A stretch of DNA of 64,000 nucleotides, taken from positions 1,302,001 to 1,366,000 of the forward strand of contig NZ_CP133721.1 of assembly GCF_031326205.1 (NCBI RefSeq), given 5' to 3'. The notes under the pieces are model-generated. The model did not search any database and was not told where the DNA came from. It saw nothing but the letters and a program-made list of their open reading frames with translations. The DNA comes from Flavobacterium sp. 20NA77.7 (GTDB taxonomy: Bacteria > Bacteroidota > Bacteroidia > Flavobacteriales > Flavobacteriaceae). Position 1 is the first letter of the stretch. Each line of letters opens with the position of its first letter. Positions 5,980 through 39,792 of this stretch are shown here, one piece after another. The translations under genes were made by a program, and so were the position numbers.

Positions 5980-7608
5980 ATGGATATTAATTTCAATAAA
6001 AACGAAGACCACAACAAACTTCTTGTTTCAGAAATGCTAAACAAATTTGCTAAAGTAAAACTTGGCGGTGGTACAAAACGTATTGAAAAATTACATGCCG
6101 AAGGAAAAATGACGGCACGTGAACGCATTGATTATCTATTAGACTCAAAAACAAAAAGCATTGAAATTGGCGCGTTTGTTGGCGAAGGCATGTATGAAGA
6201 ACACGGCGGATGCCCTTCTGGCGGTGTAGTTGTAAAGATAGGTTACATTAAAGGAAAACAATGCATAGTAGTTGCTAATGACGCTACCGTAAAAGCTGGC
6301 GCATGGTTTCCAATTACAGGTAAGAAAAACTTAAGAGCGCAAGAAATTGCCATCGAAAATCGCTTACCTATTATCTATTTAGTGGATTCTGCCGGGGTCT
6401 ATTTACCTCTACAAGACGAAATTTTCCCAGACAAAGAACATTTTGGGCGTATATTTAGAAATAACGCCATTATGAGCAGTATGGGTATTACACAAATTGC
6501 TGCTGTTATGGGTAGTTGTGTAGCAGGTGGTGCATACTTGCCTATTATGAGCGATGAAGCCTTAATTGTAGACAAAACAGGCAGTATTTTTTTAGCAGGT
6601 AGCTATTTAGTAAAAGCGGCAATTGGCGAAAACATAGACAACGAAACCTTAGGGGGCGCAACCACGCATTGCGAAATTTCTGGCGTAACAGACTTTAAAG
6701 CAAAAGACGACAAAGATGCCTTAGACCGCATTAAAAGTATTGTGAGCAAAATGGGCGACTTTGATAAAGCGGGCTACAACCGAGAAAAACCGATACAACC
6801 CACACTTAACCCTGCTGATATTTACGGAATTTTACCAAAATCAAGAGCAGAGCAATACGATATGATGGAAATCATTAAACGTTTAGTTGACGATTCTTTA
6901 TTTGATGAATATAAAGCAGGTTACGGACAAACATTAATTACTGGCTATGCTCGTATTGATGGCTGGGCTGTTGGAATAGTAGCTAATCAACGTTTGGTTT
7001 CTAAAACTAAAAAAGGTGAAATACAATTTGGCGGGGTGATCTATTCTGATTCTGCAGATAAAGCCACCCGATTTATTGCCAATTGCAACCAAAAGAAAAT
7101 ACCATTAGTTTTTTTACAAGATGTTACCGGTTTTATGGTAGGGAGCAAATCTGAGCATGGCGGCATTATAAAAGACGGCGCAAAAATGGTAAATGCCGTA
7201 GCCAATTCTGTAGTGCCAAAATTTACGGTAGTCATAGGCAATTCGTATGGCGCGGGTAATTATGCCATGTGTGGTAAGGCTTATGATCCTCGACTAATTT
7301 TTGCGTGGCCTAGTGCCGAACTAGCCGTTATGGGCGGGACACAAGCAGCCAAAGTATTGATGCAAATTGAAGCGGCTTCTTTAAAAGCAAAAGGAGAAGT
7401 CATAGATGCTACTAAAGAACAAGAACTATTTGACAGAATTAAAGCAAAATATGACGCGCAAGTATCGCCTTATTATGCTGCGGCGCGTTTGTGGACAGAT
7501 GCCATCATAGACCCGTTAGATACACGCACATGGATTTCTATGGGTATTGAAGCGGCAAACCACGCCCCTATTGAAAAGAAATTTAATTTAGGTGTACTGC
7601 AAGTTTAA
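5980..7608 (+). CDS. Acyl-CoA carboxylase carboxyltransferase (beta) subunit, methylcrotonoyl-CoA carboxylase-like
   Basis: A 542-residue biotin-dependent carboxyltransferase of the crotonase-fold family. It transfers CO2 from carboxybiotin to an acyl-CoA. The N-domain has RIEKLHAEGKMTARERIDYL and GAWFPITGKKNLRAQEIA. The C-domain has QDVTGFMVGSKSEHGGIIK and VIGNSYGAGNYAMCGKAYDPR, ending with the MGGTQAAKVL motif. The QDEIFPDKEHFGRIF and MGSCVAGGAYLPIMSDE segments resemble methylcrotonoyl-CoA carboxylase beta more than propionyl-CoA carboxylase beta, pointing to leucine degradation. No biotin carboxylase/BCCP alpha subunit is adjacent, so the substrate is not certain. A terminator follows 24 bases after the stop. 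Confidence 0.88.
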   Translation: MDINFNKNEDHNKLLVSEMLNKFAKVKLGGGTKRIEKLHAEGKMTARERIDYLLDSKTKSIEIGAFVGEGMYEEHGGCPSGGVVVKIGYIKGKQCIVVANDATVKAGAWFPITGKKNLRAQEIAIENRLPIIYLVDSAGVYLPLQDEIFPDKEHFGRIFRNNAIMSSMGITQIAAVMGSCVAGGAYLPIMSDEALIVDKTGSIFLAGSYLVKAAIGENIDNETLGGATTHCEISGVTDFKAKDDKDALDRIKSIVSKMGDFDKAGYNREKPIQPTLNPADIYGILPKSRAEQYDMMEIIKRLVDDSLFDEYKAGYGQTLITGYARIDGWAVGIVANQRLVSKTKKGEIQFGGVIYSDSADKATRFIANCNQKKIPLVFLQDVTGFMVGSKSEHGGIIKDGAKMVNAVANSVVPKFTVVIGNSYGAGNYAMCGKAYDPRLIFAWPSAELAVMGGTQAAKVLMQIEAASLKAKGEVIDATKEQELFDRIKAKYDAQVSPYYAAARLWTDAIIDPLDTRTWISMGIEAANHAPIEKKFNLGVLQV

Positions 7609-7632
7609 CTATTCTACTTTATAATTTATATC

Positions 7633-7666
7633 AGCCTGTTTTAGTTTTTGGAGCAGGCTTTTTTGT
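7633..7666 (+). terminator. Terminator after the acyl-CoA carboxylase gene
   Basis: The arms AGCCTG (7633-7638) and CAGGCT (7654-7659) are followed by a T-rich tail TTTTTTGTTTTT. It marks the end of the core dnaX/carboxylase unit before the accessory insertion. Confidence 0.75.
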
Positions 7667-7754
7667 TTTTATTTGTATCAAAACTTCTTTTTGACCGCCT
7701 ATAAAAGCTACTTTATCTGGTGTATATTTTTAATTACTGTACAGCAATTAAACA

Positions 7755-7814
7755 ATTCCCCTAGGAAAACTATTTAATTGTCCTAGGGAAAATATATTGT
7801 TCCCCTAAGGGAAA
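7755..7814. repeat. Three phased CCTAGG palindromic units
   Basis: CCTAGG at 7760-7765, CCTAGG at 7782-7787 and CCTAAGG at 7804-7810 recur every 22 bases. Each is preceded by AATT or ATTGTT and followed by a short A-run (AATTCCCCTAGGAAAA is the first). The spacing of two helical turns resembles an array of operator sites. The surrounding non-coding stretch 7667-8025 holds no gene that I can support; besides this array it has only the hairpin at 7925 and the cassette junction at 7983. Confidence 0.5.
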
Positions 7815-7924
7815 TGAAAATTAGAAAAAGTTAACTTAAAATACATCTATTACTAAATTAAAAAACAGTACTAATCATATACGGTTTAAAAATATTTAGT
7901 AGATTTGAAAAAAGTAAAACAATA

Positions 7925-7964
7925 GTTGAGCATAGCTACCCAGAAATAACTAGCTTTGCTCAAC
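7925..7964. repeat. Stem-loop upstream of the cassette junction
   Basis: The arms GTTGAGCATAGCT (7925-7937) and AGCTTTGCTCAAC (7952-7964) are complementary over 13 bases with one mismatch, enclosing a 14-base loop. There is no T-run, so it is not an obvious terminator. It sits 18 bases before the GCATATAAATGAG motif that borders the inserted unit. Confidence 0.6.
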
Positions 7965-7982
7965 TAAATAGCAAAAAACTGA

Positions 7983-7995
7983 GCATATAAATGAG
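7983..7995 (+). other. attI-like junction motif GCATATAAATGAG
   Basis: The motif ends at a G followed by TTATATGCA (7996-8004). That nonamer is the reverse complement of TGCATATAA at 10362-10370, where the distal hairpin element begins. The same 13-base motif (C for T at position 10) occurs at 38601-38613, also ending at a G^TT junction. This fits a left insertion boundary of an integron-like cassette spanning 7996-10488. Note that GCATATAA here is also the local inverse of TTATATGC. Confidence 0.55.
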
Positions 7996-8025
7996 TTATA
8001 TGCAATTTTATAAAACCACGAGACA

Positions 8026-8769
8026 TTGACAATACCATTTGAGCCGACAATCTTTGGGACTAAAATTAATGTCCACCTAATCTTAGAATATCTTGCATTC
8101 TTTACTGCATTCAGGTATTATATTAGTTTGCGTAAACTGACAACTGACCAAATATCAAATAGAAACAGACTTTCAATTATACTCGGTGCAATTGTCGGAG
8201 CTTTTTTAGGTTCCAGACTAATTGGTTTTTTGGAAAATCCAATGATTACTTTCAACTCAAATAACATAGTTCAATTATTAAACACAAAATCTATAATGGG
8301 TGGGCTGTTTGGAGGGCTAATTGGTGTTGAGACTTCAAAAAAAATAATTAATGAAAGACATTCTTCTGGCGACCTGTTCACTTTCCCTATTATCGTCGGT
8401 ATAATAATCGGACGCATCGGTTGCTTTTTAAGCGGTATTAAAGAATTTACTTACGGAAATGAAACTGGTTTTATTACTGGAATAGACTTAGGAGACGGAT
8501 TATCGAGACATCCAACCTCTTTGTATGAAATCATTTTTCTGATTTTGTTATTCATTTTATTAAAGAAAATTACTTTTTATACAAATAAAGAAAGTGGATT
8601 ATTATTTAAGATTTTCATGATTTCATACTTTGGATTTCGGTTCATGATCGAGTTTCTTAAACCAAACATTTTTTATGTTTTAGGATTAAGCAGTATTCAA
8701 TTACTTTGTGTAACATGTTGGATATATTACATTCCGACTTTTAAAAAAATAATGAAAAATGCCTACTAG
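8026..8769 (+). CDS. Lgt-family (prolipoprotein diacylglyceryl transferase-like) membrane protein, atypical
   Basis: A 247-residue multi-pass membrane protein starting at a TTG; an in-frame stop lies just upstream and no ATG occurs before codon 73. The Lgt fold is recognisable from MGGLFGGLIG (91-100), GRIGCFLSG (129-137), RHPTSLYE (161-168) and YFGFRFMIEF (201-210). True Lgt moves a diacylglyceryl group from phosphatidylglycerol to a prolipoprotein cysteine. Here the histidine of the SFHGG motif is Met91 and the asparagine of the RxGNF motif is Cys133, while R130, E168, R205 and E209 remain. A non-canonical transferase acting on another lipid or acceptor is therefore more likely than a housekeeping Lgt. 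It overlaps the next gene by 11 bases, implying coupled translation, and is the first gene of the inserted cassette. Confidence 0.75.
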   Translation: MTIPFEPTIFGTKINVHLILEYLAFFTAFRYYISLRKLTTDQISNRNRLSIILGAIVGAFLGSRLIGFLENPMITFNSNNIVQLLNTKSIMGGLFGGLIGVETSKKIINERHSSGDLFTFPIIVGIIIGRIGCFLSGIKEFTYGNETGFITGIDLGDGLSRHPTSLYEIIFLILLFILLKKITFYTNKESGLLFKIFMISYFGFRFMIEFLKPNIFYVLGLSSIQLLCVTCWIYYIPTFKKIMKNAY

Positions 8770-10153
8770 AAAATATACATATTACGACTATACAATTAGT
8801 TTGTGTCCTGAATGTTTAAAGCGGATTGATGCTAAAATTATTTTTGAAAACAAAAACGTTTACATGTTAAAAAGGTGTCCTGAACATGGTAATTCCAAAG
8901 TGCTAATTGCAGACGATATAGAATATTACAAAAATATCAGAAACTATAACAAGCCATCAGAAACACCTTATAAGTTCAATACAAAAACTCATTATGGTTG
9001 TCCGTATGATTGTGGACTTTGTCCAGACCATGAACAACATTCCTGCCTTACAATTATTGAAATTACCGACAGATGTAATTTAACTTGTCCAACTTGTTAT
9101 GCTGGTTCTTCGCCAACACATGGAAGACATAGAACATTTGAAGAGGTCAAAACAATGTTAGATACAATTGTTGAAAATGAAAAGGAACCAGACGTTGTTC
9201 AAATAAGCGGAGGCGAGCCAACACTTCACCCCAATTTTTTTGAAATTCTAGACTATGCTAAAACATTGCCCATTAAACACATTATGGTCAATACAAATGG
9301 TCTTGAAATCGCCAAAGATTTTGAATTTGCCAAACGTTTGAAAAGTTACTCACCTGATTTTGAAATTTATTTGCAATTTGATTCTTTTAGAGAGGAAGCA
9401 TTGGTTTCATTACGTGGAGCAAATTTGAAAAAAATTAGAGAAAAGGCAATTCAAAACCTAAATGAATTAAATCTATCAACAACACTAGTAGTTACATTAC
9501 AAAAAGGACTTAATGACGATGAAATAGGTCAAATAATTGACTATGCTCTTAAACAAAAATGTGTAAGAGGTGTAACTTTTCAACCAACACAAATTGCTGG
9601 AAGGCTTGATAACTTTAATCATGAAACTGACAGAATTACACTTACCGAAGTCCGCAGAAAAATATTAGAACAGTCAGAAATATTTACTTCTGACGATTTG
9701 ATTCCAGTACCTTGTAATCCTGACGCTTTAGTAATGGGTTATGTTTTAAAGTTAGAAGGAAATAATATCCCACTGACAAGATACATCAATCCGACTGACT
9801 TACTTGACAATAGTAAAAATACAATTGTATATGAGCAAGACGAAGAACTTCATCGCAAAATGTTTGAAATATTCAGCACTGGAACATCTACAGACAAAGC
9901 ATCATCTAAATTACATAGTTTACTTTGTTGCCTCCCTTTTGTTGAAGCACCAAATCTTAGTTACGACAACTTGTTTAGAATTATAATTATGCAATTTATT
10001 GACGCCCACAATTTTGATGTTAGGGCAATAAAGAAATCATGTGTTCACATCGTTAATAAAGACAATCAGATTATTCCATTTGAGACAATGAATTTGTTTT
10101 ATCGGGATGACAAAAAAGAATATTTAGAAAAACTTAAATCACAATCAATTTAA
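8759..10153 (+). CDS. Radical SAM protein resembling tetraether lipid synthase (Tes) family
   Basis: A 464-residue radical SAM enzyme. The SAM cluster motif CNLTCPTC (C106, C110, C113) and the SGGEPT loop (150-155) are clear. The N-terminus is unusually cysteine-rich: CPEC (16-19), CPEHG (40-44), CPYDCGLC (81-88) and C96. Two more conserved-looking sites follow late (CNPDALVMGY; LLCCLPF), implying auxiliary Fe-S clusters. This layout matches the MJ0619/Tes-like family; archaeal Tes joins lipid alkyl chains through sp3 C-C bonds. The match is by motif recall, not alignment. Its neighbours are an Lgt-like membrane protein and a tiny two-helix membrane protein, which supports a lipid substrate. 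The ATG at 8759 lies inside the 3' end of the upstream gene. Confidence 0.8.
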   Translation: MPTRKYTYYDYTISLCPECLKRIDAKIIFENKNVYMLKRCPEHGNSKVLIADDIEYYKNIRNYNKPSETPYKFNTKTHYGCPYDCGLCPDHEQHSCLTIIEITDRCNLTCPTCYAGSSPTHGRHRTFEEVKTMLDTIVENEKEPDVVQISGGEPTLHPNFFEILDYAKTLPIKHIMVNTNGLEIAKDFEFAKRLKSYSPDFEIYLQFDSFREEALVSLRGANLKKIREKAIQNLNELNLSTTLVVTLQKGLNDDEIGQIIDYALKQKCVRGVTFQPTQIAGRLDNFNHETDRITLTEVRRKILEQSEIFTSDDLIPVPCNPDALVMGYVLKLEGNNIPLTRYINPTDLLDNSKNTIVYEQDEELHRKMFEIFSTGTSTDKASSKLHSLLCCLPFVEAPNLSYDNLFRIIIMQFIDAHNFDVRAIKKSCVHIVNKDNQIIPFETMNLFYRDDKKEYLEKLKSQSI

Positions 10154-10164
10154 ACTTTTGACAA

Positions 10165-10347
10165 ATGGATGGAATACTATCATTAATAATAATTATTTAT
10201 CTTGTTTGCCACAGCCCGGCAATAATTATGCTTATCATTGGTTTAACAAGACTAAAATCAAGACCTGAAAATGCAAAGAAATTATTAATCGCAGCAGGAA
10301 TCTATTTTCTAATTGGTGGCGGAATTTGTGGAGCATTATTAACTTAG
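10165..10347 (+). CDS. Small two-helix membrane protein
   Basis: A 60-residue protein with two predicted membrane helices, ILSLIIIIYLVCHSPAIIML and LLIAAGIYFLIGGGICGAL, joined by a short basic loop (RLKSRPENAKK). It starts 11 bases after the radical SAM stop and is on the same transcript. I do not recognise a family. Its conserved place as the third gene of the cassette suggests a membrane anchor or accessory subunit for the Lgt-like or radical SAM protein, but this is inference. Confidence 0.65.
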   Translation: MDGILSLIIIIYLVCHSPAIIMLIIGLTRLKSRPENAKKLLIAAGIYFLIGGGICGALLT

Positions 10348-10361
10348 ACAATGAGAAAAAC

Positions 10362-10493
10362 TGCATATAACACGGGTTTGGCAAAAGTGGCGGTTCAGTG
10401 CTCCGCAGACACTTTTGTGGTTAATCAAAGTTTGGTTCTCCGCATCAACATTTGTGGTAAAAATCGCAACCTCGCAAAGCGCCAAACGTTAGC
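10362..10493 (+). other. attC-like hairpin element closing the cassette
   Basis: The outer left box TGCATATAAC (10362-10371) pairs with GTTATATGCA, the bases at the cassette start (7995-8004). Next come ACGG and an inner left box GTTTGGC (10376-10382). The inner right box GCCAAAC (10481-10487) is followed directly by G^TTAGC (10488-10493). This R''-spacer-L''...L'-R' order and a length near 130 bases are those of integron attC sites. The interior contains GACACTTTTGTGGTTAAT and CATTTGTGGTAAAA, which recur in the element at 39651. A short open frame across it (10351-10545) is not considered coding. Confidence 0.6.
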
Positions 10494-10566
10494 ATCACTC
10501 TACAACTGTTATAGTTTTGCTAAAAATTTGAGTAACTCTTTGTAGTTGCGTAATTTTAAATAAAAA

Positions 10567-11085
10567 ATGAAAAATGCTTTTTATCTTTTACTCTGTATAG
10601 TGTGTGTTTCGTGCCAAAGCCAAACAACACAAGTTAAAACAGTGAAAGAAACACCTACACCACAACACGTACAAAATAAAGACAGTATGAAATTTGAAAT
10701 TACAAAAACACCTGCTGAGTGGAAAGCACAACTTTCTGAAGAAGCCTATGCCGTTTTAAGAGAAAAAGCAACTGAGCGTCCATTTACGGGTACTTATGAC
10801 AAACATTTTGAAAAAGGTATGTATGTATGTGCCGGCTGTGAAAATCCTTTATTTTCCTCAGATACAAAATTTGATTCGCACTGCGGTTGGCCATCTTTTG
10901 ATGCAGCCCTAAAAGGTTCGGTGATTTATGAAAAAGACAACAGCTACGGCATGCAACGTGTAGAAGTAATGTGTGCTAAATGCGGTGGCCATCTAGGCCA
11001 TGTTTTTGATGACGGCCCAGAAGAAACTACGGGCATGCGTTTTTGTACCAATTCGGTTTCTATAAAATTTATCCCTAAAAAATAA
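10567..11085 (+). CDS. msrB: Peptide-methionine (R)-S-oxide reductase MsrB, lipoprotein form
   Basis: Reduces methionine-R-sulfoxide in damaged proteins. The 172-residue product has a lipoprotein signal (LLLCIVCVSC, lipobox cysteine near 16) and a short linker, then the complete MsrB domain. This includes TERPFTGTYDKHFEKGMYVCAGC, the zinc cysteine pairs CAGC and CAKC, the CGWPSFDAAL motif and catalytic RFCTNS. Envelope location, probably lipid-anchored in the periplasm, is inferred from the signal. It is the first core gene after the accessory cassette. Confidence 0.93.
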   Translation: MKNAFYLLLCIVCVSCQSQTTQVKTVKETPTPQHVQNKDSMKFEITKTPAEWKAQLSEEAYAVLREKATERPFTGTYDKHFEKGMYVCAGCENPLFSSDTKFDSHCGWPSFDAALKGSVIYEKDNSYGMQRVEVMCAKCGGHLGHVFDDGPEETTGMRFCTNSVSIKFIPKK

Positions 11086-39650: not shown

Positions 39651-39792
39651 TTGTGCAACAAGCACAACGGTTTGGCTCCAGTGGCGAGGTTTCGTGTTCC
39701 AAAGACAGTTTTGTGGTTAATGGAACATTAGTTTTTCATATCAGGTTTTGTGGTAAAAGTCCCGCCTTTCGGGTAGCTGCAAATCGTTGTGC
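39651..39792 (+). other. Second attC-like element
   Basis: Left boxes TTGTGCAAC (39651-39659) and GCACAAC (39662-39668) are followed by GGTTTGGC. The right end is TGCAAATC, then G^TTGTGC (39786-39792), complementary to GCACAAC. The interior shares with the element at 10362 the blocks AGTGGCG, GACAGTTTTGTGGTTAAT (39704-39721) and TTTTGTGGTAAAA (39746-39758) in the same order and spacing. Which left box is the true outer box is not settled. Confidence 0.55.

Follow-up and report, generated by a model that had tools for sequence, protein, structure and literature searches.

The window analyzed here is a stretch of 64,000 nucleotides from Flavobacterium sp. 20NA77.7 (contig NZ_CP133721.1, positions 1,302,001 to 1,366,000; the genome is a single contig of 2.33 Mb). 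It contains a unit of three genes, which encode an atypical protein of the Lgt fold, a radical S-adenosylmethionine (SAM) protein related to Tes and TrsS, and a 60-residue membrane miniprotein (the mini). The conservation of this unit is far beyond chance, and the three genes almost certainly form one functional module, in whose function a lipid is probably involved. The reading that we favor, tentatively and with somewhat less than even confidence, is a dedicated lipid-attachment and lipid-remodeling module: the cysteine near the end of the mini would be lipidated by the Lgt-like protein, and the radical SAM enzyme would then act on the lipid chains. No single known kind of system holds the three parts together.

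According to the reading of the open reading frames (ORFs), the three genes lie head to tail in the order Lgt-like, radical SAM, mini:

8026 to 8769, plus strand: atypical Lgt-fold membrane protein, 247 aa, TTG start (PF01790; Foldseek match to 5azb)
8759 to 10153, plus strand: Tes/TrsS-like radical SAM protein, 464 aa, starting within the Lgt-like gene (PF04055 and PF23545 above cut-off, the TrsS and Tes profiles below theirs; structural match to 7tol)
10165 to 10347, plus strand: mini, a 60-residue membrane hairpin

The first two genes overlap by 11 bases, and another 11 bases separate the radical SAM stop from the start of the mini. The first-pass annotation of this DNA had given the same ORFs and coordinates, with the 11-base overlap and a 60-residue two-helix protein behind the radical SAM gene, and all of these hold. 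The mini could not be placed in a known family; no Pfam or NCBIfam profile matched it above cut-off. A canonical Lgt is encoded by a separate copy elsewhere in the genome (176 bits in a profile search).

The radical SAM gene was sought in a sample of 395 genomes of the order (E<=1e-30), and the Lgt-like alignment was used in 391 genomes drawn alike (E<=1e-35). The radical SAM gene was present in 61 of the 395, and both enzymes were found in all 61 (59 in the 391-genome search; G391 and G392 were searched apart). At these thresholds, no genome among the 391 carried the Lgt-like gene without the radical SAM gene. The gap between the two genes ranged from -8 to 1,292 bp in the 59 genomes measured. 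In a sample of the phylum, 34 of 395 genomes matched the radical SAM alignment at E<=1e-20.

When 84,980 species genomes were scanned, 508 matching stretches were returned, and the best 80 of these, close relatives with 80-93% identity, were kept. An Lgt-like match lies upstream in 79 of the 80 loci; the contig of the exception starts within the radical SAM gene. Minis follow the radical SAM gene in 78 loci (one mini in 45, two in 28, three in 4, and four in 1); the contigs of the two mini-less loci stop short, at the radical SAM match itself or no more than 125 bp from it. Of the 78 first minis, 37 overlap the stop of the radical SAM gene and 72 begin no more than 30 bp from it. The grouping of the three genes, which the first-pass annotation had proposed as a unit, is therefore widespread. 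In seven of the 79 loci (L053, L063, L064, L065, L101, L103, and L105), the Lgt-like and radical SAM genes are 1-6 kb apart, with other DNA inserted between them, and the Lgt-like matches of L065 are fragmented.

Overall, the unit is present in many Bacteroidota and a few actinobacteria. In most genomes examined of the family labeled f5 (Weeksellaceae, judging from its Riemerella member), the mini lies between the two enzymes. Seven records from a plasmid collection were opened; the trio occurs in four (Persicobacter, M. avium, M. branderi, and Nonomuraea), and the three records without it are from M. vanbaalenii and two haloarchaea. In these three (L162, L163, and L165), a Tes/TrsS-like radical SAM gene precedes a methyltransferase gene, and no annotated Lgt was found within the 6-8 kb shown. 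The generalization that every relative of the radical SAM protein has an Lgt partner was accordingly rejected.

Among more distant Lgt-linked loci (~38-40% identity), G502 and G717 contain, in this order, the radical SAM gene, an ORF that by eye resembles DUF4395, the Lgt-like gene, and a gene for a Cys-tailed membrane protein. G533 (L148, 3435-6941; also ~38-40% identity) has overlapping genes for the radical SAM protein, an ICMT-family methyltransferase (49.9 bits), DUF4395, the Lgt-like protein, and a Cys-tailed protein, with the ICMT-family gene overlapping the radical SAM stop. This gene set is possibly an extended version of the module. In eukaryotes, ICMT acts on a lipidated cysteine; its presence in the G533 unit is no more than suggestive.

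The C-terminal Gly-x-Cys of the mini was overlooked in the first-pass annotation.

10321 to 10329, plus strand: Gly53-Ile54-Cys55, where the last helix closes on its C-terminal side, predicted to be the outer one

The 80 close-relative loci yielded 117 minis. A cysteine within the last 25 residues, located 3-10 residues from the C-terminus, is present in 113 of them. Glycine occupies the position two before this cysteine in 112 of the 113, and a glycine follows it in 95. At -1, 107 of the 113 have Ile, Val, Phe, Tyr, Thr, Leu, or Met, 5 have Ser, and 1 has Ala. The 14 residues ahead of the cysteine are uncharged, and a cluster of Arg and Lys is located at -17 to -27. We searched for the pattern formed by Lys or Arg, a run of 12-24 residues that excludes K, R, D, E, H, N, and Q, then Gly-x-Cys, 1-11 further residues, and the end of the protein. 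Of the 954 sense ORFs near the gene, 98 contained it, versus 2 of 3,234 other ORFs in the same loci, both of which are minis themselves. These are two extra Cys-tailed minis in L112, ~4.8-5.0 kb after the radical SAM gene, and they are the only ones that this search placed outside the operon in the 80 loci.

Across 21 minis chosen from Bacteroidota and M. avium, with forms lacking Gly at -2 left out, only Gly53 and Cys55 are invariant. In the distant loci, a small membrane ORF with a cysteine near its end lies beside the radical SAM gene in 20 of 21. Their tails include SGYICGG, SGFVCGG, GCICG, TSILCGW, and SSLLCSA in f5, and YSIC, FSTC, FATC, and FSAC elsewhere. Since the residue at -2 varies in these distant minis, Gly-x-Cys was rejected as a universal motif, and the tail cysteine is taken as the general feature. 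The tails on the Mycobacterium plasmids and in Nonomuraea read AGICTG, AGYCTG, GGLCTG, VGVCTG, and again AGICTG; proteins with Pro-rich N-termini are closed by this tail in Nonomuraea and in M. branderi.

By the positive-inside rule, the basic end of a membrane helix is cytoplasmic. With the basic cluster on the inside by this rule, the mini cysteine is predicted to lie where the last helix meets the outer face, the site where Lgt finds its acceptor. The lipobox consensus has a small residue at -1. The residues of the mini tail are arranged as in a lipoprotein signal peptide whose lipobox is shifted.

The Lgt-like protein scores 86 bits against PF01790 (gathering cut-off 24.9), and 50.9 bits against the lgt equivalog TIGR00544, below its cut-off of 118.9. 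In a Foldseek search with an AlphaFold model of modest confidence (pLDDT 68), E. coli Lgt (5azb) was the only match at E<=0.001 (E 6.1e-4, TMq 0.57). We aligned 95 Lgt-like proteins with E. coli Lgt. The positions of interest in the window protein are as follows:

8074 to 8076, plus strand: His17, in the column of E. coli Lgt Tyr26
8296 to 8310, plus strand: M-G-G-L-F, Met91 to Phe95, in the place of the Lgt HGGL motif
8413 to 8424, plus strand: R130-I-G-C133, with the catalytic Arg143 of Lgt kept and Asn146 replaced by Cys
8638 to 8640, plus strand: Arg205, the equivalent of E. coli Arg239

The residues of the donor site, which in Lgt is the phosphatidylglycerol site, are retained (Arg143 in 95/95, Glu202 in 95/95, Arg239 in 94/95, and Tyr235 in 93/95), as are Gly154 (95/95) and Gly145. 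Arg143 and Arg239 are the proposed catalytic pair for transfer in Lgt (PMC4728403). Asn146 is replaced by Cys in 94 of the 95, in agreement with the earlier observation that Cys133 stands in place of the asparagine of RxGNF. The column of Tyr26 holds His in 90 and Tyr in 3, and Glu151 is replaced by varied residues. None of the 95 proteins has His in the column of His103, and none of the 93 that could be read by motif search has the His of an HGGL-type motif. The loss of this histidine, which the first-pass annotation had located at Met91, thus stands; whether Met91 or Phe95 occupies the His103 column depends on the alignment, and neither is His. Since Arg143, Glu202, Arg239, and Tyr235 are retained while His103, Asn146, Tyr26, and Glu151 have changed, the lipid-donor side of the protein is kept and the acceptor side rebuilt.

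The first-pass annotation had described the radical SAM protein as having the layout of the MJ0619/Tes group. Ahead of its Cx3Cx2C motif are C16, C19, C40 (with H43), C81, C85, C88, and C96. Alignment places most of these in two metal-site motifs:

8804 to 8887, plus strand: rubredoxin-like metal site C16-x2-C19-x20-C40-x2-H43, with the spacing of Tes C9-x2-C12-x20-C33-x2-H36 (Tes ligands as given in PMC9433317)
8999 to 9031, plus strand: N-terminal auxiliary cluster motif C81-x3-C85-x2-C88, with H91
9074 to 9097, plus strand: radical SAM motif C106-x3-C110-x2-C113 (sequence and alignment)

The Tes ligands of the rubredoxin site, the N-terminal cluster, and the radical SAM cluster are all present in the window protein. 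In a 21-row alignment, the N-terminal cluster motif is lost in two actinobacterial rows and mostly lost in one haloarchaeal row. Met439 of Tes (the numbering of the structure chain and that of the paper are offset by 20) is matched in the window protein and in 14 of the 21 rows. The highest-scoring NCBIfam profiles are TrsS (NF045646, 339 bits, cut-off 490) and then Tes (NF045702, 295 bits, cut-off 450); among the best 25 of 62 families, the protein reached no cut-off. Peptide and cofactor families such as MoaA and WgkB scored ~62 bits or less. The closest solved relative is Tes (7tol, E 7e-74). The profiles and the Tes-type metal sites bear out the proposed layout, and the profile search did not place the protein in another well-known radical SAM family. 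With the profiles favoring TrsS and Tes and the nearest structure being Tes, a peptide or cofactor maturase was rejected as the first choice. The predicted structure of the protein is of low confidence (pLDDT 61), and its gene has no in-frame stop codon. In the one paper found that names TrsS, it is a table row only, and the available text gives no function for it.

We calculated a tree of 23 sequences, in which the program flagged long branches. A branch with moderate support (88/83) separates all 17 Lgt-linked enzymes, the actinobacterial ones included, from the Tes-like and methyltransferase-linked sequences; G424 is the single exception on the Lgt-linked side. The window protein falls outside the Tes branch.

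From these features, we infer the following topology, lipidation, and radical chemistry. The mini would insert as a hairpin, with a basic loop in the cytoplasm leading into a last helix that reaches the outer face, where the helix end Gly-Ile-Cys-Gly would serve as lipid acceptor. The atypical Lgt would move a diacylglyceryl group onto this cysteine. The lipidated hairpin would stay uncleaved, because the bulky residue next to the cysteine at -1 would keep signal peptidase II from cutting. More speculatively, the radical SAM enzyme, working from the cytosol, might then abstract a hydrogen from a saturated acyl chain held in a hydrophobic pocket and form a chain bond by coupling, methylation, or desaturation, which would give a remodeled lipid anchor. 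The conserved Cys tail, the several minis per operon, and the signal-peptide-like last helix favor the small protein as the acceptor, a role to which we give an even chance; that the radical SAM enzyme acts on lipid chains we hold to be slightly less probable than that. A stronger variant is protein-borne stitching, in which the Lgt-like protein would put diacylglycerol on the hairpin cysteine and the Tes-like enzyme would join two lipids by their chain ends, both of them carried by hairpins, or one carried by a hairpin and the other an inner-leaflet phospholipid. We regard this variant as unlikely. If true, it would give crosslinked or membrane-spanning lipid anchors in bacteria, built on a protein and not on free lipid.

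A number of observations weigh against this module reading. The mini tail does not qualify as a lipobox, having mostly Ile or Val at -1; the tail cysteine is missing in 4 of the 117 close minis, and most f5 genomes and several other distant loci have a residue other than Gly at -2. Only one mini was found in the genome of the window, and the other match is weak and lies inside a 281-aa frame, so dispersed substrates were not seen in this genome. G424 has the two enzymes on different contigs with a mini found beside neither, and in G635 the Lgt-like gene is on another contig. The equivalent of Met439 is missing in the more distant Lgt-linked rows of the 21-row alignment. Tyr459 of Tes corresponds to Ile431 in the window protein; this tyrosine is reported to be conserved across 1,000 archaeal homologues, though the Tes variants Y459F and Y459L are reported to be active (PMC9433317). 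A cytosolic radical SAM enzyme would need the chain end at mid-membrane to reach an outer-leaflet lipid. Lastly, the H103, Y26, and E151 residues are replaced in the Lgt-like proteins, and E. coli Lgt mutants of H103, R143, Y26, and E151 are inactive (PMC4728403), so the Lgt-like activity could be lost.

A dead enzyme is the starting point of one alternative, in which the Lgt-like protein would be catalytically inactive, Cys133 and the mini cysteine would form a disulfide in a redox or sensor device, and the radical SAM enzyme would make an unrelated small molecule. The replacement of His103 and Glu151, both needed in E. coli Lgt, would fit this, and Cys133 (94/95) is about as conserved as the mini cysteine. 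However, four lipid-site residues kept in 93-95 of 95 proteins would be needless in a dead scaffold, and the Tes-type enzyme would be left unexplained; we consider this alternative very unlikely. Small, variable, multi-copy partner genes beside a radical SAM gene are typical of the precursors of ribosomally synthesized and post-translationally modified peptides. The radical SAM enzyme might by analogy modify the mini itself, making a thioether or other bond near the cysteine, with the Lgt-like protein as a partner or as a lipid adder, and its core does match peptide maturases at a low score (WgkB, 56.6 bits). We think this quite unlikely, as the best profiles are TrsS and Tes instead of peptide maturases, and the conserved cysteine is at the predicted outer helix end, on the far side from a cytosolic enzyme. 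In the loci whose ORFs were read, we noticed no protease or exporter that recurs, although this was not a systematic test.

The enzymes could also make a modified free membrane lipid, such as a tail-coupled or macrocyclic phospholipid, with the mini as a scaffold and its cysteine as a structural residue or a shuttle. Tes, which is of the same group as the radical SAM protein, works on free lipids, and density in Tes crystals could be taken for a pair of phosphatidic acid molecules that occupy hydrophobic pockets (PMC9433317); the haloarchaeal and M. vanbaalenii relatives, with no annotated Lgt within the 6-8 kb shown, also point this way. Left unexplained would be the conserved tail cysteine, the two to four divergent minis in 33 of the 78 loci, and the presence beside the gene of an Lgt fold, which in Lgt directs transfer to cysteine. 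We judge a free-lipid product to be rather unlikely. The first-pass annotation had proposed a bacterial unit that moves a glycerol-lipid group and then alters a chain. A lipid-modifying unit is in line with the Tes-group enzyme, the retained donor residues of Lgt, and the co-occurrence of the genes; as for its substrate, we favor the lipidation of a protein followed by chain chemistry over free lipids.

The radical SAM protein of the window shares 91-93% identity with copies in a Bacteroidetes metagenome-assembled genome (MAG), in Allomuricauda, and in a Cytophagales MAG. Within its own genus, the identity is 80-81% in ten genomes, 66-68% in three, and 90% in G761, and the gene is present in one of the ten near relatives examined. 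The tree pairs the window protein with that of Allomuricauda (95/97). The unit has likely moved horizontally, in either direction. When 7608-10567 of the window (2,960 bp) was compared with L035, from a distant Bacteroidetes MAG, DNA similarity (80%) covered just the three-gene unit (window 7996-10373, L035 5238-7610). A 15-base inverted repeat is located at 7995-8009 and 10357-10371, and the similarity stops within a few bases of it. That the similarity is limited to the unit and ends at this repeat suggests that the unit moves as a discrete cassette.

Directly behind the unit, at 10357-10500, is a repeat of ~120-140 bases with inverted ends (GGGTTTGGC...GCCAAACGTTA); a second, partial copy is at 39669-39761. 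The repeat was matched in 19 of 60 genomes examined, its own included (18 of the genus and 1 of another family), at up to 94% identity. Some matches span only ~30 bases, some genomes contain several copies, and the repeat lies behind various genes. It is like the end of a gene cassette and may be attC-like. A stable hairpin was rejected for it, as it folded no better than shuffles (z -0.65, -0.48). The check for an empty site covered nine loci around msrB relatives; pccB was absent from their short flanks, and the check gave no support for insertion into an empty site. A phage or virus origin of the unit was also rejected; viral contigs contained three weak loci, and no phage match covered 80% of the query.

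We found no paper describing the combination of an Lgt-like protein, a Tes-like protein, and a mini in the open-access literature, bioRxiv left aside; the first-pass annotation likewise did not know it as a described system. If the module reading is true, the unit would be an unrecognized second branch of lipoprotein biogenesis, in which the substrates are uncleaved hairpins lipidated at the C-terminus and the anchor is worked on by a radical enzyme. The function of the bacterial Tes relatives would then also become accessible to genetics. Zeng et al. reported 456 bacterial Tes homologues, left their role open, and suggested branched tetraether lipids (PMC8941075); the term 'Flavobacter' is absent from the available text of that paper. 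The presence of the unit in many Flavobacteriaceae and other Bacteroidota makes the question directly testable.

We count the unit as a new kind because membership in Lgt, Tes, TrsS, and the lipobox each fails on at least one tested feature. TrsS is the top-scoring profile for the radical SAM protein, across almost its full length, yet the score is below the cut-off and the window gene is without an in-frame stop codon. With Tes (MJ0619, 7tol), the protein shares the rubredoxin-like site, the N-terminal cluster motif, the radical SAM motif, Met439, and one C-terminal cysteine. It differs from Tes in its score below the profile cut-off, in the change of Tyr459 to Ile, in the extra Cys96, and in its place outside the Tes branch; the window enzyme is linked to an Lgt fold, whereas no Lgt was seen by the two Tes-like genes that were read (L149 and L151). 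The Lgt-like protein is the same as Lgt (5azb) in fold and in Arg143, Arg239, Glu202, Tyr235, Gly145, and Gly154, and a candidate acceptor, a cysteine ending a basic-then-hydrophobic helix, is available beside its gene. It differs in being without His103, in having Cys for Asn146 and mostly His for Tyr26, in the replacement of Glu151, and in scoring under the equivalog cut-off in a genome that has its own canonical Lgt. Like lipoprotein signal peptides, the mini has a basic stretch, ~14-16 uncharged residues, and then mostly Leu-Gly-x-Cys. In contrast to them, it has Gly at -2 and a bulky residue at -1, and its cysteine, which lies 3-10 residues before the C-terminus, closes the second hairpin helix and does not begin a mature protein.

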